A stretch of 63,361 nucleotides of DNA from an uncultured Carboxylicivirga sp. Lineage in GTDB: Bacteria; Bacteroidota; Bacteroidia; Bacteroidales; Marinilabiliaceae. Under the pieces are notes generated by a model, which saw only the letters and a list, made by a program, of their open reading frames with translations, did no database searches and was not told where the DNA came from. Position numbers and translations under genes: made by a program. Where the stretch lies: assembly GCA_947491945.1 (NCBI GenBank), contig CANLLN010000027.1, positions 1 to 63,361 on the forward strand. The letters are read 5' to 3'. This document shows, in pieces, positions 4,617-49,717 of the stretch (the first letter of the stretch is position 1; each line of letters opens with the position of its first letter).

Positions 4617-5204
4617 ATGAAAAAAATCGTTTTAGCAGCCATGATTCTTCTGGCTACAATAGCCACCCATGCCCAATCGGAAGGGATGATTGGCGAAATC
4701 CGGATGTTTGCTGGTAATTTTGCCCCGCGTGGCTGGGCTTTGTGTGATGGTCAGTTATTATCCATTGCTCAAAATTCAGCCTTGTTTTCAATTTTAGGAA
4801 CAACCTATGGCGGTGATGGACGCACCACCTTTGCCTTACCCGATTTAAGAGGACGCGTTCCTGTTCATGCCGGCAGTGGCCCGGGTTTATCGCCTTATGC
4901 CTTAGGGCAAAAAGGAGGTGCCGAAACAACCACCCTAAGTGTAGGTAACCTGCCTGCACACAGCCACAATGCAAGTGTTGTCAATAAGGTTAACAATGAT
5001 GAAGCTACTTCGGATGATCCCAGTGGTAAGTATCCGGCCGTATCGGGTGAAAACATGTACCATGAGCTGAGCAATGCCGAGAGTGCAGTATCGACGGTGA
5101 TGGTAGAAAACACCGGCGAAGGGCAGGCTTTTGATCAGCGTCAGCCTTATGCCACTATTAATTACATTATCTGTCTTCAGGGGATTTATCCATCGCGTAA
5201 CTAG
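4617..5204 (+). CDS. Secreted tail-collar (MdpB/microcystin-dependent-like) domain protein
   Basis: After a signal peptide (MKKIVLAAMILLATIATHAQ) the protein has the phage tail-collar fold signature: GEIRMFAGNFAPRGWALCDG, then LFSILGTTYGGDGRTTFALP and DLRGRVPVH, followed by GGAETTTLSVGNLPAHSH and a C-terminal NYIICLQGIYPSRN. Bacterial homologues of this family are usually exported and occur singly or in small clusters outside prophages. No other phage structural gene is nearby. The ATG at 4617 follows an A-rich stretch; an upstream ATG at 4596 would lengthen the N-region. The gene lies 5 bases before the lamin-tail-like gene, so the two are probably co-transcribed. The biochemical role of stand-alone members is not established. 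Confidence 0.85.
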   Translation: MKKIVLAAMILLATIATHAQSEGMIGEIRMFAGNFAPRGWALCDGQLLSIAQNSALFSILGTTYGGDGRTTFALPDLRGRVPVHAGSGPGLSPYALGQKGGAETTTLSVGNLPAHSHNASVVNKVNNDEATSDDPSGKYPAVSGENMYHELSNAESAVSTVMVENTGEGQAFDQRQPYATINYIICLQGIYPSRN

Positions 5205-5209
5205 AAAAG

Positions 5210-6178
5210 ATGCATCGATCTATTTTAATATTATTAGTGGGGATGCTGGTTTTTAATCTCAAAGCTCAGCACACCTTGAAAAAGGGCGACATCGCTTTTG
5301 TCGCGATCAATAGTGATGAATCCGATGATGTGTTCTCATTTCTTCTGCTGGCGGATGTAATGGCCGGAACAGAAATCCATTTCACAGATAATGGATGGAC
5401 GGCAGCCGGAAGTTTTAATACTATTTATCCTGAAAGCCATTTCACCTGGCAGGCAACAGCTGATCTTAAGGCCGGTACCCTTGTGCATGTTACTACCTAT
5501 AATGGCAATGCTGTGGCTACGGCTTCGCAAGGGAGTGTTACCGGTGAAAAGATGACGGTATCGGTGGCAGGTGATCAAATACTGGCGTATCAGGGCGACA
5601 AGCTGAACCCTGTTTTTATAGCTGCCATTAGTTTTAATCAGAATAAACCAACTGAACCGGCGTCAAATTTTGACGGTGATTCTTTTAGTAACTCAACAAC
5701 TGCTCTACCAACAGGTTTAGATATAGGACAATCAGCAGTTCATGTTTACCATCCTGATAATTTTTCAGAGCAGGATAATGCCCGTTTTAATTGCAGTGTT
5801 ACGGCCGGTACTAAAGCTGAATTATTGCAGGCGCTATGTGATAAAAATAATTGGACAACAGACAATGAAACGCCTTTTCAGGTGGATCCGTTCCCATGTA
5901 ATTTTGAGGTTAGCCTTCCCACAGCTATTGGATCAGAAGAAGTGGATGGCGATGATTTTCGCATTTTTGTAAAAGAGCGTCATGTGGTTATTAGCCTGGC
6001 TAATTCTGAAGCTTCAGAGTTGAAACTTTTCAATGCCGGTGGGGTAATGGTCAAAAGTTTAAGAAAACCACAGGGAGTAAGAGAAGCGGAAATGGCAACC
6101 GATAACTTACCAAAGGGCTTATATATCTTAACACTAAGCATTGATCAGCAGATGGTAAGCCGAAAAGTGATTCTTTAA
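5210..6178 (+). CDS. T9SS-sorted surface protein with lamin-tail-like domain
   Basis: The 322-residue protein has a signal peptide ending near FNLKAQ and a domain of about 190 residues beginning LKKGDIAFVAINSDESDD with FTDNGW and TTYNGNA. This is the kind of beta-sandwich domain often found next to lamin-tail or calcium-binding modules in Bacteroidota surface proteins. The last ~80 residues (FRIFVKERHVVISL, LKLFNAGGVMVKSL, LPKGLYILTLSID, SRKVIL) form a Type A T9SS C-terminal sorting signal, so the protein should be exported and anchored to or released from the outer membrane. It follows the tail-collar gene by 5 bases and is ended by the hairpin at 6204. Confidence 0.75.
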   Translation: MHRSILILLVGMLVFNLKAQHTLKKGDIAFVAINSDESDDVFSFLLLADVMAGTEIHFTDNGWTAAGSFNTIYPESHFTWQATADLKAGTLVHVTTYNGNAVATASQGSVTGEKMTVSVAGDQILAYQGDKLNPVFIAAISFNQNKPTEPASNFDGDSFSNSTTALPTGLDIGQSAVHVYHPDNFSEQDNARFNCSVTAGTKAELLQALCDKNNWTTDNETPFQVDPFPCNFEVSLPTAIGSEEVDGDDFRIFVKERHVVISLANSEASELKLFNAGGVMVKSLRKPQGVREAEMATDNLPKGLYILTLSIDQQMVSRKVIL

Positions 6179-6203
6179 AATAGCTGAAAAATAATGGTAA
6201 GAG

Positions 6204-6242
6204 AAAGCGGTTACATCACTATTTGATGTAGCCGCTTTTTTC
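6204..6242 (+). terminator. Rho-independent terminator
   Basis: AAGCGGTTACATCA pairs with TGATGTAGCCGCTT around a short loop, with one mismatch, and is followed by a T run. It ends the tail-collar/lamin-tail transcript. Confidence 0.8.
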
Positions 6243-6294
6243 ACTTATTTTGTTCCTGTTGCCCCGATGGTCTATGAGCCTAAACTTCAAAACT

Positions 6295-9279
6295 ATGAAT
6301 AAAAGCATCGAACAATTATCGCTTCAGAATTTATATAACCGTAAACGGACCGACCGAGACATTTTTCAGGAACTCATGTCGTTTAAGGTACGCGAGGTCT
6401 TGCTTATTGCTAATCATTACGATGCCTATAGTATTGTGCGCGAAGGACGTTTTTTCGATAAGATATTTGGTGAGTATCTGCAGCTGAATCTGTTTACCGC
6501 CCCACGTATAACCAGTGTGGCCACCTGCAGCGAGGCCGAAGAGCTGATGCAGGAACGCGATTTTGAGATGATCATCCTTATGGCAGGGCTCGATAAGCAA
6601 TTGCCCCAACAAATGAGTGCCCGCCTTAAGCAAATCAACCCTGAAGTACCCATCTTATTGATGGTGAATAATAATGCCGATCTGAAGTTTTTCGACGAAG
6701 CCAGTGATAACCACGAGTATATCGAGCGTGTCTTTGTATGGAATGGCGATTCGCGCGTGTTTTTGGCCATGATAAAGTATGTGGAGGACAAAATGAATGT
6801 GCAGAACGATGTGGAGGTGGGCGATGTGCGCGTTATCCTGCTGGTGGAAGACTCGCAAAAGTACTATACACGTTACCTACCCTTGCTCTATTCCATAATT
6901 ATGCGGCAAACACAAGCCATACTGGAAGAAGAATCCAGCGATCAGCTGCATAAGATTATGAAGATGCGCGTGCGACCCAAAATTTTGTTGGTGAGCACCT
7001 ATGAGGAAGCCGTTGAGGTGGTGGATAAATATCTGGATAATCTGATTTGTGTTATTTCCGATGTGAAATATGCGCGCGGTGGTAAGGAGGATGAGGATGC
7101 CGGTGTTGAGCTAATTAAGTATGTAAAGTCAAAGACCATTATACCCACGCTTTTACAGTCGTCTGATCCGGCCAATGCAGCGCGCGCTGAGGTTGTCAAC
7201 TCTGATTTTATCGATAAGAATTCCGATAGCCTGAGTCTCGATATCTATAATTTCATTCATCGCAAGCTGGGCTTTGGCGATTTCGTATTTAAGAACACTC
7301 GGGGTGCCAAAGTGGCGGTGGCTCGTAATATGAAGGAGTTTGTGGCTTGCATCGAAGAGGTAACGCCCGAATCATTGCTGTATCATGCCCGCCGAAACGG
7401 TATCTCTACCTGGTTGATGGCGCGCGGAGAAATCACCATTGCCAAGCGCCTGCGTCCCTATCGCATCGAAGATTTTGAGAGTTCCACCAAATTGCGACAA
7501 GCTATTTTGGATGTGTTTGAAGATGTGCGTCTGAAACGTTTGCGTGGTAAAGTGGTGATGTTTGACAAAGCCATGGTAAAGAGCTGTCGTTACATCGTCC
7601 GCATTGGCGAGGGATCCTTCGGGGGTAAAGGGCGGGGTGTAGCCTTTCTGAGTAATTTTATTGAGAACATCAATTTCGATCAAATCATCGATGACATCAA
7701 CATACGCATACCGGCAACCACCATTATTGGTGCCGGAGAGTTCACCCACTTTATCGAGAAGAATAACCTTTATAACCTGGCTTTTGTAGAAAAGAATTAT
7801 GACGAGATTAAACAGCTGTTTCTGAAGGCTGAGCTGAGCGATGAGGTAAATGAAAAGCTGATGCAGTATGTTGAGGTGATGGATCAGCCACTTGCTATCC
7901 GTTCGTCGGGTCTGTTTGAAGACAGTTTGTTACAGCCCTTTGCCGGTGTGTATGCCACCTATATGGTACCCAATAACCATCCGGATATTCAGGAGCGCTT
8001 TCGTCAATTGTGTACGGCTGTTAAGCTGGTATATGCCTCCATGTTCAGCGATCCGGCCAAGGCCTATTTCGATGCCGTTAACTATAAGATTGAAGAAGAA
8101 AAAATGGCCGTCATCATACAAGAGGTGGTAGGCGGTAAAGTGGGCGATCGCTTTTATCCCAACATAAGTGGTGTGGCACAGTCCTACAATTACTACCCTT
8201 TCTCTTACATGAAGCCTGAAGATGGCTTTGCTGTGCTGGCAGTGGGACTGGGTAAGTATGTGGTGGGGGGCGAAAAGGCCTATCGTTTCTGCCCCAAGCA
8301 TCCGAAACTGGAGCTTAACTCGCTGCAGGATCAAATAAAAGATTCGCAGGCTTATTTCTACGCGCTTGATCTGGAGAAAGATGATTTTTGCCTTGAAAAG
8401 GGAGGGGAGGATGCCGCCATTGTTAAGCTCAATATCAAGGAAGCGGAGGAGGATGGGAATCTGAAACATTGTGCATCGGTGTATGATTATAACTACGATC
8501 GCCTCACTAACGACTTTACCAAGCGGGGGCCTCGTGTGGTTAATTTTGCCAATATTCTTAAGTATGATTGCATGCCGTTGTCCTCGACCCTGAATATGCT
8601 TCTGCGCTTTTTTAAAGAAGCCATGGGGGCACCTGTGGAAATTGAGTTCGCAGTGGATTTGGAGCCGGGAAGAAGAGGTTTGCCCACCCTTTATCTTCTT
8701 CAGATTAAACCTCTCATCAGGGTAGAAAACAATGTTAGTATCGACTTTGATAGTGTTGATCGCGACAAGGTGGTGTTGCAATCTGTCAAAGGAATGGGCA
8801 ACGGACGCCTGCATCATATAAAAGATGTGGTGTATATGAATATTGATGTGTTCGACCGCACGCAAACGGCCGAGATGGGCGCCGAGATGGCCAAAATAAA
8901 CAAGTACTTTGAGGAGCAGGATAAGGAGTATATTCTGATTGGTCCGGGTCGATGGGGTACGCGCGACCGCTTTACCGGTATTCCGGTTTTCTGGTCGCAA
9001 ATATCGCATGCTCGTGTGATTGTGGAGATGGGCTTGCCCAATTTCCCACTCGACGCCTCTCTGGGCTCTCATTTCTTTCACAATGTTACCTCCATGAATG
9101 TGGGCTATTTCAGCGTGCACCACAACAGTGACGAGCAGTTTGTAAATATGGAGGAGCTAAAAAAGCAGAAGCTGATAAGGGAGACACAATACTTCCGGCA
9201 TGTTGAGTTTCAGCAGCCCCTCACAATACTCATGGATGGTAAGCAACAAAAGGCCGCCATTGTGAGCAACGACGAATAA
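6295..9279 (+). CDS. Receiver-domain / PEP-pyruvate-binding (PPDK N-terminal-like) hybrid protein
   Basis: The 994-residue protein starts with two receiver-like regions. The first (about residues 33-150) lacks an obvious phospho-acceptor. The second (about 179-320) retains the acidic pair in LLVEDS, an Asp in CVISDVKY and the Lys in FIDKNS. From about residue 430 on there is a pyruvate-phosphate dikinase N-terminal (ATP-grasp) domain with GEGSFGGKGRGVAFL, LAIRSSGLFEDS with the conserved Arg, and GPGRWGTRD. The phosphohistidine swivel and the PEP-utilising TIM barrel of real PPDK/PEP synthase are missing, so it is unlikely to make PEP alone. Similar proteins are known in Bacteroidota without an assigned function. 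Starts at 6250 (TTG) and 6274 are alternatives. The 3' end is followed by a weak TAGCC/GGCTA hairpin near 9317-9330. Confidence 0.75.
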   Translation: MNKSIEQLSLQNLYNRKRTDRDIFQELMSFKVREVLLIANHYDAYSIVREGRFFDKIFGEYLQLNLFTAPRITSVATCSEAEELMQERDFEMIILMAGLDKQLPQQMSARLKQINPEVPILLMVNNNADLKFFDEASDNHEYIERVFVWNGDSRVFLAMIKYVEDKMNVQNDVEVGDVRVILLVEDSQKYYTRYLPLLYSIIMRQTQAILEEESSDQLHKIMKMRVRPKILLVSTYEEAVEVVDKYLDNLICVISDVKYARGGKEDEDAGVELIKYVKSKTIIPTLLQSSDPANAARAEVVNSDFIDKNSDSLSLDIYNFIHRKLGFGDFVFKNTRGAKVAVARNMKEFVACIEEVTPESLLYHARRNGISTWLMARGEITIAKRLRPYRIEDFESSTKLRQAILDVFEDVRLKRLRGKVVMFDKAMVKSCRYIVRIGEGSFGGKGRGVAFLSNFIENINFDQIIDDINIRIPATTIIGAGEFTHFIEKNNLYNLAFVEKNYDEIKQLFLKAELSDEVNEKLMQYVEVMDQPLAIRSSGLFEDSLLQPFAGVYATYMVPNNHPDIQERFRQLCTAVKLVYASMFSDPAKAYFDAVNYKIEEEKMAVIIQEVVGGKVGDRFYPNISGVAQSYNYYPFSYMKPEDGFAVLAVGLGKYVVGGEKAYRFCPKHPKLELNSLQDQIKDSQAYFYALDLEKDDFCLEKGGEDAAIVKLNIKEAEEDGNLKHCASVYDYNYDRLTNDFTKRGPRVVNFANILKYDCMPLSSTLNMLLRFFKEAMGAPVEIEFAVDLEPGRRGLPTLYLLQIKPLIRVENNVSIDFDSVDRDKVVLQSVKGMGNGRLHHIKDVVYMNIDVFDRTQTAEMGAEMAKINKYFEEQDKEYILIGPGRWGTRDRFTGIPVFWSQISHARVIVEMGLPNFPLDASLGSHFFHNVTSMNVGYFSVHHNSDEQFVNMEELKKQKLIRETQYFRHVEFQQPLTILMDGKQQKAAIVSNDE

Positions 9280-45135: not shown

Positions 45136-46236
45136 ATGATAGAATTAAAAGATTTAATAGTTTTTTGTGGGATACAAACCCTTGGGTTGATATTTATCTT
45201 ATTGCAAAAAAAATACAGATCGCTACCTAATTTCTTGTTGGTAATGGTGTTGGTTAACTTATTTGTTCATTACACCTATTATTTCTTTTTTTACAATAAG
45301 GTATTTTCAGCAACCTCAAATTGGGCTTATTCTATTATTCTGCCCGGTATAATAGCTCCGCCTATCATTTATTTTTATACCTTATCGATATTACACGGAA
45401 AAATACGATTCACGAGAAAAAGTTGGCTGCACCTAATACCTCTTGCTTTAATTTCTATTGTTTATTGGATTTATACAAAATGTTCGGATTATGAAAGAGA
45501 GATACTTTTGTATTGGGTAAAAAATTGCAGCATTGCCCTGTATCTGTTTTACCCCATTATTAGTTTTATATCCATATCAAAGTTTTATCGATTAAAAGGT
45601 GTTGGTTTTAAATTGTTCCAGTTTGATAAAGGAAGGGTATCTATGGTGAAGCTACTTCTAGGTATGATGGTCCTTCATTTTTTGATATTGATTATCAAAA
45701 ACAACATCCATTTTTTCGTCAGCAATGCGCAATTGTTAATGAATACCATTAACCTTTGGTTTTTTATTGCTTTAAGTTATGCCATTAGTTATACGGTTAT
45801 AAGTGAACCCAAAACCATCAACCATAAGCCAACTGAAGCAGGGCTAAAAAGTTTTAAGAAATATAAGAACTCCAAATTGAGTCACGATAGGGCCCTGCAT
45901 GAGTTGACCCGCTTAAATCAATTGATGACTTCTCAAAAGCCTTTTCTTAATCCGGATTTTGATCTGGCCAAACTCGCCGAGTTAAGCGGGATGCCAGCCG
46001 CCAATATTTCCGAAATATTAAATGGTCTTGTCAAGCAAACCTTCAATGACTATACTAATAATTACCGGATAGAAGAATTTAAGAAATTGGCTTCAGATAT
46101 TAACAAGCGGAACTTAACAATTTTAGCTTTGGCTTTCGAATCCGGGTTTAATTCTAAATCTACTTTTAATGCTGCTTTTAAAAAGTTTACGGGCACTACG
46201 CCTTCTGAATATATTAAGACCTTAAAGGCGGTGTAA
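45136..46236 (+). CDS. AraC-family regulator with N-terminal membrane domain
   Basis: The first ~215 of 366 residues form about seven hydrophobic helices (for example YSIILPGIIAPPIIYFYTLS and LLGMMVLHFLILIIKNN). The C-terminal ~100 residues are an AraC/XylS double helix-turn-helix: FDLAKLAELSGMPAANISEI, then FNDYTNNYRIEEFKKL, LTILALAFESGFNSKSTFNA and FKKFTGTTPSEYIK. This membrane-HTH architecture is common in Bacteroidota. It lies 196 bases upstream of the reductive dehalogenase-like genes on the same strand, so it is the first candidate for their control, though that is inferred from position alone. Confidence 0.85.
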   Translation: MIELKDLIVFCGIQTLGLIFILLQKKYRSLPNFLLVMVLVNLFVHYTYYFFFYNKVFSATSNWAYSIILPGIIAPPIIYFYTLSILHGKIRFTRKSWLHLIPLALISIVYWIYTKCSDYEREILLYWVKNCSIALYLFYPIISFISISKFYRLKGVGFKLFQFDKGRVSMVKLLLGMMVLHFLILIIKNNIHFFVSNAQLLMNTINLWFFIALSYAISYTVISEPKTINHKPTEAGLKSFKKYKNSKLSHDRALHELTRLNQLMTSQKPFLNPDFDLAKLAELSGMPAANISEILNGLVKQTFNDYTNNYRIEEFKKLASDINKRNLTILALAFESGFNSKSTFNAAFKKFTGTTPSEYIKTLKAV

Positions 46237-46388
46237 TTGAAAGGGGATTTTACTGTTTTAGGTGTTGGTTCTGCTATTTATACTGGTTTTCCTGTTTTTT
46301 GGTAGTTGATTTATAGTGTGAGGGTTATACGTGCTAAAATATTACCGGACGTCCTGATTCTGTAAATAAGCGCATAAGAATTTCCATC

Positions 46389-46432: not shown

Positions 46433-47914
46433 ATGGATAGTAATAAAACAAACCGGCGAAACTTTCTGAAGCTAGGTGGTGTTTCGGCAGCAGTTGGTAT
46501 CACAGCAATAAGTGCTATTCCGCAAAAAGTGGCAGCCAATAAATTGGATAAAAAAATCACCGGTGATTTAGTGAAGGTTCACGATGATTTTCCGGTGGAG
46601 GTGAGGGCTGATTATAAACCTCCACGCAACTGGGATCATGTGCAGGCACGGTCTATGTTTGTTGATGCCGTAAAGGCCATTGGCGAGGATGTAGAGGACG
46701 AAATTGTGGCCGATGGTCAAGCCTTTATTAAAAAGATGAATTATGCCTATGATAACAGTAAGGTTGGCTATAATCAGGCTGACAAAGCATTGTTGGCAGG
46801 CGCCTGGGCTATGAATAACTATGCGGCAGGACCAAGCCCGGCAACCATTGGTGATTTTGGTGTAAATAGCTGGGAACAACGTTCCGAAAAAGCCCATTAT
46901 GCTCTGTTTGACAATGATTATGTAGTAAAGAAAAAATATAAGTTCGACAATAAGCAGCAGGCAGCTGACTATATTAAGCGGGCAGCTCGTCTTTTTGGTG
47001 CCGACTTGGTGGGTATAACCCGACGTGATAAGCGTTGGGACTATAGTAAATTTTTAAACCCTATTCCGCCCCTCTTGCGTAAGCCATTGCTAGGGCCTCC
47101 TTCTCCGGAGCAACTCGAAGAATTAAAATTTTGGGGACCTGATAAATTTATAAGCGACTGGAGCGATTTTCCTTTTGAGCCTAAAACAGTGATTGTATTG
47201 GCTTTCGAAATGGACTATGAAGGTATTTCGGCATCGCCATCGTATGTTGGTAGTGCTGCTGCCGGAGCTGGTTATTCGGCTATGGCGAAAGTTCCTTATC
47301 AGTTGGCCGTGTACCTAAAGAATCTTGGTTATAACGCAGTATCGGCTGGCAACGATATGGGCTTAAGTGTGCCCTACGCTATTGCTGCCGGTCTTGGAGA
47401 GAATTCACGTCTCGGGCAGGTGGTAACCTATAAATACGGACCACGTGTTCGTTTGGCAAAGGTATATACTGACTTTGAGTTTGTTGAATATGATAAACCT
47501 AAGTCGTTTGGTGTAATGGATTTTTGTAAGAGCTGTATGCGTTGTGCGGATGCTTGTCCTACCAAAGCGATATCGCACGATAAAGAACCGTCGTTTGATC
47601 CCACTCACGATAATAAGGATAATGCCTGGTACAATGTGAAAGGGGTTAAGAAATACCATGTAGATGCGAAGAAATGCTTCAAATTATGGGGTGAATTAGG
47701 TGATGACTGTGGTATGTGTATGGCCTCTTGTCCCTATAATAAGCCAGATTTCTGGCATCACCGTCTTGTGGATAGTATTACGGCTGCAATGCCTGGTCCT
47801 GTGCATGATTTTATGCGCGAAATGGACAAGATGTTTGGTTACGGTAATGTAGAAGATCCTTCAGCCATTAAAAAGTTTTATAGTCCCAAAGGTAAAAGCT
47901 ACAACGGACACTAA
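46433..47914 (+). CDS. rdhA: Tat-exported reductive dehalogenase homologue (RdhA-like, corrinoid/iron-sulfur)
   Basis: The 493-residue protein starts with a twin-arginine signal, NRRNFLKLGGVSAAVGITAI. The catalytic region reads YQLAVYLKNLGYNAVSAGND, PYAIAAGLGENSRLGQVVTY and RVRLAKVYTDFEFVEYDKPK, the pattern of the cobalamin-binding core shared by RdhA and the queuosine enzyme QueG. Two iron-sulfur motifs follow: C365-x2-C368-x2-C371-x3-C375-P and C415-x10-C426-x2-C429-x3-C433-P. The Tat signal, the length and the rdhB/rdhC-like neighbours favour RdhA over QueG, which is shorter and cytoplasmic. The substrate cannot be predicted, and a non-respiratory or non-dehalogenating role is possible. 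Followed 60 bases later by the anchor gene. Confidence 0.85.
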   Translation: MDSNKTNRRNFLKLGGVSAAVGITAISAIPQKVAANKLDKKITGDLVKVHDDFPVEVRADYKPPRNWDHVQARSMFVDAVKAIGEDVEDEIVADGQAFIKKMNYAYDNSKVGYNQADKALLAGAWAMNNYAAGPSPATIGDFGVNSWEQRSEKAHYALFDNDYVVKKKYKFDNKQQAADYIKRAARLFGADLVGITRRDKRWDYSKFLNPIPPLLRKPLLGPPSPEQLEELKFWGPDKFISDWSDFPFEPKTVIVLAFEMDYEGISASPSYVGSAAAGAGYSAMAKVPYQLAVYLKNLGYNAVSAGNDMGLSVPYAIAAGLGENSRLGQVVTYKYGPRVRLAKVYTDFEFVEYDKPKSFGVMDFCKSCMRCADACPTKAISHDKEPSFDPTHDNKDNAWYNVKGVKKYHVDAKKCFKLWGELGDDCGMCMASCPYNKPDFWHHRLVDSITAAMPGPVHDFMREMDKMFGYGNVEDPSAIKKFYSPKGKSYNGH

Positions 47915-47974
47915 TCAGATAGAATGTAGTAGTTAGAATTACTGAATTTACAATGCATTAAAAGATTAAAAACT

Positions 47975-48271
47975 ATGATATTCACAGGTATTGAGATGCT
48001 ATTTTTTTCACTGGGAATGCTTACAGCGACCAGTATAATGGGGGCCTATTATTATAACCGCCAATATAGGTTTAAGGCTGCTACCTGGTTAGCCTTGGCT
48101 TTGGGCTTGTTTCTGATGCTATTCTGCATTGCTTGGTCGGTTAGCTCCGTATTAGAGGGAGAGCCGCGGGCTGCCAGTATGGGCATGCTGATTTTTGGTA
48201 TTCCTTCGGTATTGCTACTCATTTTGGCGCGACGACTGGCGCTTAAAAATGTACAAAAGGACACCAAATAA
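47975..48271 (+). CDS. rdhB: Three-helix membrane anchor (RdhB-like)
   Basis: The 98-residue protein has three hydrophobic segments (GIEMLFFSLGMLTATSIMGA, ATWLALALGLFLMLFCIAWS, MGMLIFGIPSVLLLILA) and a short conserved-looking stretch AWSVSSVLEGEPRAASMG between helices two and three. Anchors of respiratory reductive dehalogenases (PceB and relatives) have this size, three helices and a similar SS-x-x-E-x-E/R loop followed by MGxxxFG. That resemblance is from memory and would need an alignment. Its position directly after rdhA supports the assignment. Confidence 0.7.
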   Translation: MIFTGIEMLFFSLGMLTATSIMGAYYYNRQYRFKAATWLALALGLFLMLFCIAWSVSSVLEGEPRAASMGMLIFGIPSVLLLILARRLALKNVQKDTK

Positions 48272-48344
48272 TTTCTTTTAATTATACTATTGGCAGTGGG
48301 CAGCTTTGGCTGTCCACTTCGCATTTAAGAAATGACGATTAACC

Positions 48345-49475
48345 ATGAAGAAAATAATTAATGGACTGGCTTACTTTAGTCTGCTGATTGCCTTTATTAT
48401 TGGCCTTTGGGCCGATAAAACCAAAAATGAGTTGAATGGACTGGCTTATTTATCAACACATAAGCTTAGCCTCGGGGAGGCGCATGATGGTGTTTATCCC
48501 TTACTAAAAAAGGGTGAACTAGCTGGTTATTTAGCTCTTGGTGAGGCGCAGGGGTATGGGGGCCCCTTGCAAATTGTAGTGATTACCGATACGACTGCCT
48601 TGGTTAAAGAAACTATTGTTTATCAGGCTTTTGAAACTCCTTCCTTTTTAGCTAAGCTGCACAGTAATAAATTCTTCCAACAGTTTACCGACAAACCGGC
48701 CTCGGCATCGTTCGTATTTGGTGAGGATATACAAGGTGTAACAGGCGCTACGATCAGTTCAAGAGCGATTAATGAGGCCACCCGTAAGGCGGCTCATATC
48801 ATTGCTTCAGAGCAGTTTAAAATAGAAGTAGCGCCGGTTGTTAAACAATGGTCGCTCTCTTATTTAGATGGCATTATTGCCTTGATACTTATTACAGGTA
48901 TTTTTTTATCGTACAAGCGCATTCGAAAAATCAGAACAATCAACCTGGGGTTGGGCATTGTTTTTATAGGCTTTGTGTTAAATGCCTCGCTGTCTTTAAC
49001 ACATTTTGGTCGTTTATTTTTAGGCTACTTTCCGGATATACATACACACCTGTCGTGGTGGCTGCTGTTACTGGGGACCATAAGTATCCTTGTTATCAAT
49101 GGTAAAAACATTTACTGCAATTCCATATGTCCGTTTGGAGCCACTCAGATGCTGCTCCACCAGATATCGGGTATTAATCTTAAGCTAAAGCCACAAGTGA
49201 TGAAAAGGTTATCACAAACGCCTTATATCTTGCTTTGGCTGGCGCTTATGCTTACTTTCTTGTCGCGCAATCCGTCCATTGCCTCCTACGAGCCATTTGC
49301 CATGTTGTTTTCGCTTGATGGAGTAGGTATACAATGGTATATATTACCGGCTGCTCTCCTCGGAGCCTTGTTTGTATCTAATTTTTTCTGTCGTTTCTTT
49401 TGTCCTGTAGGTGGCATGTTTCGATGGATTAATAAAACACGCACTTTCTTTATAGGCTTAATACCCGGTAAGTAA
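48345..49475 (+). CDS. rdhC: FMN-binding membrane electron-transfer protein (RdhC/NosR-like)
   Basis: The 376-residue protein has an N-terminal helix, a periplasmic FMN-binding domain (about residues 30-155) with the covalent flavinylation motif DIQGVTGATISS (Thr136), and then about five transmembrane helices. Two CxxxCP motifs, C258-NSI-C262-PFG and C349-RFF-C353-PVG, face each other in the membrane domain. This is the plan of NosR, RnfG-related NapH-like and PceC proteins. In organohalide respiration PceC is thought to pass electrons from menaquinol to RdhA; here that is inferred from order. The classical C-terminal [4Fe-4S] ferredoxin domains of NosR are absent, as in PceC. Confidence 0.8.
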   Translation: MKKIINGLAYFSLLIAFIIGLWADKTKNELNGLAYLSTHKLSLGEAHDGVYPLLKKGELAGYLALGEAQGYGGPLQIVVITDTTALVKETIVYQAFETPSFLAKLHSNKFFQQFTDKPASASFVFGEDIQGVTGATISSRAINEATRKAAHIIASEQFKIEVAPVVKQWSLSYLDGIIALILITGIFLSYKRIRKIRTINLGLGIVFIGFVLNASLSLTHFGRLFLGYFPDIHTHLSWWLLLLGTISILVINGKNIYCNSICPFGATQMLLHQISGINLKLKPQVMKRLSQTPYILLWLALMLTFLSRNPSIASYEPFAMLFSLDGVGIQWYILPAALLGALFVSNFFCRFFCPVGGMFRWINKTRTFFIGLIPGK

Positions 49476-49570
49476 TGCTTTGGGCATTTTGCCGCATGTT
49501 AATGGAAATAAGAATATGATGACTGTAATAATCATGTAAATAAAGATAACCCTCAATAATCTGCAATTAG

Positions 49571-49717
49571 ATGACAACTAAAAAAGCAAAATCAGGATCA
49601 ATAGCTGCCATAGCGCTGTATGTAGTATGTTTGGCGTTTATACTAATGTTTATAGTAGGTAAAGCTCAGGATTTAGTTAAAGGAATAGATTTGCTCCTGT
49701 TAGGATTCGCTACTTAG
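49571..49717 (+). CDS. Small single-helix membrane protein downstream of rdhC
   Basis: A 48-residue frame: a basic N-terminus (MTTKKAKSGS), one strong hydrophobic helix (IAAIALYVVCLAFILMFIVG) and a short tail GKAQDLVKGIDLLLLGFAT. It begins 95 bases after the rdhC stop on the same strand and precedes a small regulator gene. No family recognised. Coding potential is supported by the charge and hydrophobic layout only, so it could be a chance frame. Confidence 0.45.
   Translation: MTTKKAKSGSIAAIALYVVCLAFILMFIVGKAQDLVKGIDLLLLGFAT

Follow-up and report, generated by a model that had tools for sequence, protein, structure and literature searches.

The window analysed here, a stretch of 63,361 nucleotides from an uncultured Carboxylicivirga sp. 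(contig CANLLN010000027.1 of assembly GCA_947491945.1), carries a complete rdhABC gene set that, judging from its sequence, very probably encodes a menaquinol-dependent respiratory reductive dehalogenase (RDase) of the PceA/RdhA family, acting at the outer face of the membrane. The genes for the catalytic subunit, the anchor and the membrane flavoprotein follow one another behind a gene for an AraC-type regulator and ahead of a 48-codon open reading frame (ORF; Table 1). An earlier note on this DNA had proposed the three consecutive genes, and ORF positions, profiles and motifs located all of them where it had put them. The span that it gave, 46433 to 49717, runs past the third gene: the rdhC stop codon is at 49475, and 49717 is the stop of the fourth, tiny ORF. 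The presence of a full respiratory-type set in a Bacteroidota chromosome is supported, but the respiration is not an undescribed one, as PMC12090745, PMC12908670 and PMC5928378 already report RDases or RdhC in Bacteroidota. The operon is of a kind reported for close relatives.

Table 1. Features of the rdh operon and its upstream region in the window (aa, amino acids; Tat, twin-arginine translocation; ORF, open reading frame).
Feature	Positions	Strand	Basis
Membrane-anchored AraC/HTH_18 transcriptional regulator (predicted)	45136..46236	+	HTH_18 E 4e-14 at the C terminus; hydrophobic stretches in the first 195 residues
Conserved block in the araC-rdhA gap, candidate regulator site	46338..46354	+	Alignment of upstream regions
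rdhA, putative Tat-exported corrinoid/4Fe-4S reductive dehalogenase catalytic subunit, 493 aa	46433..47914	+	TIGR02486, PceA 8q4h, tree, fold model
rdhB, putative membrane anchor, 98 aa, E61-G-E63 motif	47975..48271	+	Family profile matches PceB 8q4h_C
rdhC, putative membrane flavoprotein with FMN_bind and a NapH/NosR-like membrane domain, two CX3CP motifs, 376 aa	48345..49475	+	Profiles, motifs, model
Mini-gene, 48 aa, one predicted membrane helix	49571..49717	+	Similar ORF behind rdhC in many relatives

RdhA matched the 'reductive dehalogenase' model TIGR02486 at 220.2 bits, above its cut-off of 160.35, and the QueG model TIGR00276 at 35.4 bits, below the cut-off of 200. It carries a Tat motif (RRNFLK, residues 8-13) and two iron-sulfur cluster motifs, FeS1 (CKSCMRCADACP) and FeS2 (C-x10-CGMCMASCP). 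In an alignment of 37 selected rows (A3; the window included, the distant loci L079, L082 and L085-L094 left out), the cluster cysteines C365, C368, C371, C375, C415, C426, C429 and C433 are each found in every row. The Pfam Dehalogenase profile PF13486 was silent in the genome, but it was equally silent in all 14 controls.

The best solved relatives of RdhA are the PceA chains 8q4h, from the PceA2B2 complex of Desulfitobacterium hafniense TCE1 (E 1e-76), and 4uqu (E 2e-44). The earlier note had proposed structure prediction and a phylogeny against QueG as checks, and both place RdhA with PceA; the clustering with QueG that it had named as a refutation was not seen. A fold search with the AlphaFold model (mean predicted local distance difference test score [pLDDT] 84.5) returned 8q4h_A first (E 2e-35, with about 30% identity in the structural match), then S. 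multivorans PceA and the catabolic NpRdhA; QueG matched much more weakly (E 8e-7).

PceA residues were mapped onto RdhA through alignments to 8q4h and 4uqu, using an offset of 48 between the numbering of the paper and that of the chain, which was consistent for Y337 and R396. These two conserved active-site residues of PceA (PMC10624902) align with RdhA Y281 and R340, both kept, like N307, in all 37 rows. PMC10624902 describes PceA2B2 as a menaquinol:organohalide oxidoreductase that binds menaquinone at the PceA-PceB interface, with K489, H495, R499 and D515 surrounding the quinone head, and proposes that H495, D515 and Y520 and PceB E61/E63 transfer protons. PceA K489, H495 and D515 map to RdhA K437, H443 and D465 (37/37 rows each), and Y520 maps to Y470, a position with Tyr in 29 rows and Phe in 8. 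By this alignment, RdhA keeps four of the five residues that the paper names for the PceA menaquinone pocket.

RdhB reached no Pfam cut-off, and a profile built from 19 family members had a single PDB match up to E 10, the PceB chain 8q4h_C (E 4e-11). This match upholds the PceB homology of what had been called a three-helix RdhB-like anchor, but a simple hydropathy cut passes just two of the three expected helices. Both glutamates of PceB are matched in the window; E61 is conserved in 19/19 selected rows (A2, the most distant loci left out) and E63 in 14/19. A distant relative, L042 (8657-10360; same record as L067:3015-4718), encodes a 567-aa RdhB-RdhA fusion with the RdhB-like stretch at the front, which supports the A-B pairing. 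Its Tat motif lies in the middle of the protein, behind the RdhB helices, whereas published hybrids lack Tat.

RdhC contains FMN_bind and two Fer4_5 stretches, with the flavin mononucleotide (FMN)/flavinylation motif TGATIS and the CX3CP motifs CNSICP and CRFFCP. GAT and both CX3CP motifs are invariant in the 16 selected rows of its alignment (A4, the window included). The protein ends 22 residues past the second CP, and C-terminal 4Fe-4S motifs are absent; its structure model has a pLDDT of 83.7. As predicted from its sequence, RdhC has the features by which PMC5928378 defines the family, namely, a [S/T]G[A/S]TX[S/T] FMN motif, two CX3CP motifs and no C-terminal 4Fe-4S motifs. The flavinylated CxxxCP protein of the earlier note, described there as RdhC/NosR-like, is thus RdhC by its motifs; NosR proper was rejected, with 54 bits against the NosR model (cut-off 1000) and no C-terminal Fe-S motifs.

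Fourteen named Bacteroidota loci (L044, L045, L047-L057 and L074) show the A-B-C order as well, which argues that the arrangement is more than chance. The G+C content per kilobase over the operon (0.40-0.43) lies within that of its surroundings (0.33-0.51) and therefore gives no sign of recent transfer. RdhA was matched at E <= 1e-30 in 9 genomes, its own among them, out of 295 from the same order. The only full-length match besides its own was in genome G665 (72%), and several others are hybrid-type RDases with N-terminal helices, L036 and L038 passing TIGR02486 at 170 bits. The trait is rare in a sample of 395 genomes drawn from the phylum, where only the window's own protein exceeds the TIGR02486 cut-off. 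No RdhA relatives were found in viral contigs, and only three plasmid records contained a distant RdhA.

A scan of named genomes yielded 51 loci. In seven Marinifilum genomes, Labilibacter sediminis and one metagenome-assembled genome (MAG; L052), RdhA shares 82-84% identity with that of the window; the proteins of Labilibaculum filiforme, Ancylomarina, Puteibacter and two Marinilabiliaceae share 52-57%. Identity is 45-52% in four flavobacterial genomes (L059-L062) and one Melioribacteraceae MAG, and 38-45% in Parendozoicomonas haliclonae, Halodesulfovibrio, Desulfoluna spongiiphila, Ferrimonas and Shewanella. In the near group (L044-L052 and L074), the regulator-A-B-C order was found in 9/10 loci, the L046 locus stopping short of rdhC.

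For the tree, 75 sequences were gathered and 7 were dropped as near-duplicates or fragments, leaving 68 rows; of the 51 loci, L052, L067, L074, L082 and L091-L094 were not gathered, three of them duplicating L041-L043. RdhA groups with PceA and other respiratory RdhA, apart from QueG. The window falls in a 13-row Bacteroidota clade (100/99) within a 33-row clade (98/93) that also contains the Desulfoluna (L070), Parendozoicomonas and Shewanella proteins. Outside this clade come Aminicenantes rows and then PceA 8q4h, with the order of deep forks unsure and several reference rows long-branched or partial. Five confirmed QueG rows (290-333 bits against TIGR00276) split off at 100/100, and the four hybrid-like rows L036 and L038-L040 do not group with the window.

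Several relatives have unusual arrangements. The flavobacterial loci L059, L060 and L062 hold two RdhA genes about 1.1 kb apart, with rdhB, rdhC and a mini-ORF after the second. One isolate of Parendozoicomonas haliclonae has five RdhA genes in four loci (L063, L064, L065 and L068), each with an RdhB gene; no paper in the literature searched names both Parendozoicomonas and 'reductive dehalogenase'. In the L052 MAG, rdhA (4983-6476) and rdhC (6967-8124) are each in two ORFs, reflecting assembly errors or decay. Five proteins from other Bacteroidota (L004-L008, in G220, G318, G192, G023 and G381) of 316-339 aa score 113-139 bits against TIGR02486, below the cut-off; no Tat motif was seen at their start, and they form a separate deep clade in the tree.

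Related systems have been described. In PMC12090745, nine bins and 112 genomes of Bacteroidota are reported to carry RDase genes; two of the enzymes, RDase2 of bin.24 and the RDase of bin.31 (a bin near Marinifilaceae), are 38.7% identical to Shewanella sediminis PceA, and electron-transport genes adjoin both. PMC12908670 finds RDases in 6/6 Marinifilum genomes (bin.4 counted) and 5/6 Ancylomarina genomes. Its bin.4 Marinifilaceae RDase, accompanied by RdhB and an upstream regulator, Btr, was upregulated about 1,650-fold within 30 min of 2,6-dibromophenol addition; that study detected no significant homologue of pceA or tceA among its bins. These papers of 2025-2026 propose Bacteroidota, Marinifilum and Ancylomarina as candidate organohalide respirers, and PMC5928378 had listed RdhC from Bacteroidetes in 2018.

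The operon of the window also occurs in Marinifilum, Labilibacter, Labilibaculum and Ancylomarina genomes. The Marinifilum and Labilibacter sediminis operons have RdhB, RdhC and the AraC-type regulator arranged as in the window, and Ancylomarina sp. DW003 has RdhB and RdhC behind an RdhA of 53% identity. The published Marinifilaceae bins would carry the same operon type, a match drawn from descriptions and not from sequences. PceA2B2 of TCE1 has in common with the window the RdhA fold, both clusters, the active-site Tyr/Arg and the quinone-site and RdhB residues given above; the window differs in its low identity, in the lack of a PceT gene among the scanned neighbours and in the mini-gene behind rdhC. 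The hybrid RDases of Marinilabiliales (PMC6797604) belong to the same bacterial order and enzyme family but are described without a Tat signal or a separate rdhB, both of which the window has. Desulfoluna spongiiphila RdhABC (L070) has the same A-B-C order, at about 42, 49 and 32% identity, and, comparable to the mini-gene of the window, a 30-aa one-helix ORF, which there overlaps the rdhC end. A sigma-54-dependent regulator is reported for the Desulfoluna rdhA1 cluster (PMC7031245), whereas that of the window is of the AraC type.

The activity that we infer for the operon, with its cofactors and energy gain, would run as follows. RdhA would be exported folded through Tat, carrying a corrinoid and two 4Fe-4S clusters, and be placed on RdhB at the outer face of the inner membrane. 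Menaquinol would be oxidised at the RdhA-RdhB interface, and electrons would pass via the two clusters to cobalt. The carbon-halogen bond would be cut reductively, Y281 being the likely proton donor next to R340 and N307. RdhC, which would be flavinylated by the single ApbE of the genome, probably helps electron supply or maturation. TatC and BtuR are likewise present in one copy each.

The L070 protein from D. spongiiphila AA1, which bears on the question of the substrate, is probably RdhA1, because the contig/gene numbering fits and because L079 of D. butyratoxydans resembles RdhA1 of that species: it has a late start and no RdhB or RdhC match, and PMC7031245 describes D. butyratoxydans RdhA1 likewise. 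According to the same paper, Desulfoluna strains debrominate and do not dechlorinate, rdhA1 responds to 1,4-dibromobenzene, and RdhA1 is in the proteome. By analogy, a brominated aromatic would be the likeliest substrate of RdhA, a guess only at about 42% identity to L070. Tetrachloroethene (PCE) is disfavoured because the bin.31 RDase, by description the one most like that of the window, had no transcripts in PCE-dechlorinating cultures (PMC12090745).

That silence also weighs against a respiratory dehalogenase, as do several other points. PceA R499 falls on RdhA S448 in a gapped stretch (Lys in 16/37 rows, Ser in 10, Arg in 3) and is not clearly kept. The genome holds only one RdhA, its one distant match being the genome's own QueG (L002, 328 bits). 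In corrinoid synthesis, CobS was not found and CbiH reached only 25 bits, where the cut-off is 246; the cell therefore probably takes up its corrinoid instead of making it. An Rfam scan of the window gave no cobalamin riboswitch, only two transfer RNAs being above threshold, and no PceT-like gene was among the six window proteins scanned. PMC10624902 doubts that PceC is an electron carrier, and PMC12090745 states that, among the RDase-bearing Bacteroidota, the physiology of organohalide respiration had been characterised in no isolate. The RDases of bin.3 and bin.4 are reported as <30% similar to characterised enzymes (PMC12908670), of which the bin.4 value counts against respiration; the figure fits the identity of the window RdhA to PceA 8q4h only loosely.

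It may be that RdhA dehalogenates without respiration, as a fermentation electron sink or for organohalide detoxification, and that the cell conserves hardly any energy or none by it. PMC6797604 counts facilitated fermentation and catabolic use among the roles shown for RDases, and such use would suit an organism with only one RdhA and a probable dependence on imported corrinoid. Tat export, the anchor and the conserved menaquinone-pocket residues suit a menaquinol-linked chain instead, and we regard the non-respiratory role as possible but clearly the less likely. Reduction of a non-organohalide substrate by the same corrinoid chemistry appears improbable: the active-site Tyr, Asn and Arg are invariant in 37 rows that include the proven debrominator D. 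spongiiphila (PMC7031245), even though this nearest relative from a proven dehalogenating species is only about 42% identical and no member of the 13-row Bacteroidota clade with an assayed substrate was found. There is next to no chance that RdhA is a mislabelled epoxyqueuosine reductase (QueG) or a QueG-like enzyme, which belongs to the same superfamily and would account for the match at 35 bits, since profile scores, tree and fold search refute that identity, a Tat signal is present and the genome carries a separate QueG.

The respiratory operon is probably turned on by the AraC-type membrane regulator encoded upstream. A gene 44-48% identical to it was found upstream of rdhA in L044-L052 and L074. 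Btr, the regulator of the bin.4 RDase, is presumably of the AraC type as well. The candidate regulator site contains ACGTCC (ACGACC in L052) and was found in 9/9 aligned upstream regions, including those of the window and of Marinifilum and Labilibacter loci. Its pattern occurs once exactly in the window, where a match with at most one mismatch is expected about 0.5 times by chance.

The fourth ORF follows rdhC in the window after a gap of 95 bases and encodes one strongly hydrophobic stretch, and near relatives have versions of 31-34 codons at the same position. We counted such mini-ORFs as frames of 26-50 aa with an ATG at -60 to +100 of the rdhC end and a peak hydropathy of at least 2.0 over 17 residues, limits fixed only after the first copies had been seen. 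A mini-ORF of 29-48 residues with a single helix was found at 23/30 rdhC ends, or 24/31 with L067, which was added later; the count does not include L041, which shares a contig with L074, nor L046, whose locus stops short of rdhC, nor L077, in which rdhC is truncated. The loci are related to one another and hence are not independent draws. As a control, the ends of 199 further long genes from these loci were examined, of which 2 carry a similar frame. In 16/24 copies, the start lies no further downstream than the final base of the rdhC stop codon. Positives include L044, L045, L047-L057 and L074 and come from Bacteroidia, Flavobacteriia, Gammaproteobacteria (L065 and L072), Desulfobacterota (L070 and L071) and Aminicenantes (L075). 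The seven rdhC ends without it are L066, L069, L085, L087, L088, L089 and L090. In the Halodesulfovibrio locus L066 (2525-3892), which has no separate mini-ORF, RdhC is 455 aa long and has a C-terminal extension closing with a hydrophobic helix; this extension may be the mini-ORF in fused form.

A hidden Markov model (HMM) built from the copies of 12 relatives, with the window excluded, detected the window ORF at E 4.5e-7 among 14,176 frames. With an HMM from five Labilibaculum-type copies, the next five matches were all ORFs at rdhC ends, that of the window included (E 0.006-0.12). The flavobacterial L059 copy was detected at E 5.5e-4 with a 13-copy HMM and at 0.025 with the 12-copy one, and the L060 copy at chance level only (0.48, beside an unrelated frame at 0.42). 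Sequence search did not detect the Desulfobacterota, Gammaproteobacteria and Aminicenantes copies, whose kinship is therefore judged by place and hydropathy. The ratio of nonsynonymous to synonymous substitution rates (dN/dS) was about 0.10-0.15 in four close Marinifilum pairs, about 0.3 between L048 and L052 and about 0.46 between the window and L074, so that constraint on the longer copy of the window is less clear; dS was saturated or nearly so in the remaining pairs. None of nine copies scanned reached a Pfam or NCBIfam cut-off, the nearest being L059 against DltX (E 0.001, 19 of 25 bits).

No mention of a mini-ORF behind rdhC was found among the literature matches listed, and its conservation may be a new observation. 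In the available texts of PMC11129491, PMC13390484, PMC12203066 and PMC6005880, nothing was found on the operon or the mini-gene, 'small membrane protein' appearing in PMC6005880 in a reference only. On balance, we lean slightly towards the view that operons of this branch, from Bacteroidota to Desulfobacterota, Gammaproteobacteria and Aminicenantes, encode, at the end of rdhC, an overlooked fourth component, a single-helix membrane miniprotein of 29-48 residues that would stabilise the RdhC module or the whole RdhABC complex. Such a miniprotein would be comparable to stabilising subunits such as CydX or KdpF.

If translated, the predicted product would fill a gap in complexes in which even the role of RdhC is only putative. 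The operon of the window adds one more genome to those that suggest a part for Bacteroidota in the halogen cycle, and the strains that carry the operon, Marinifilum fragile, M. flexuosum, M. breve, Labilibacter sediminis and Labilibaculum filiforme, allow a direct test of the published proposal.

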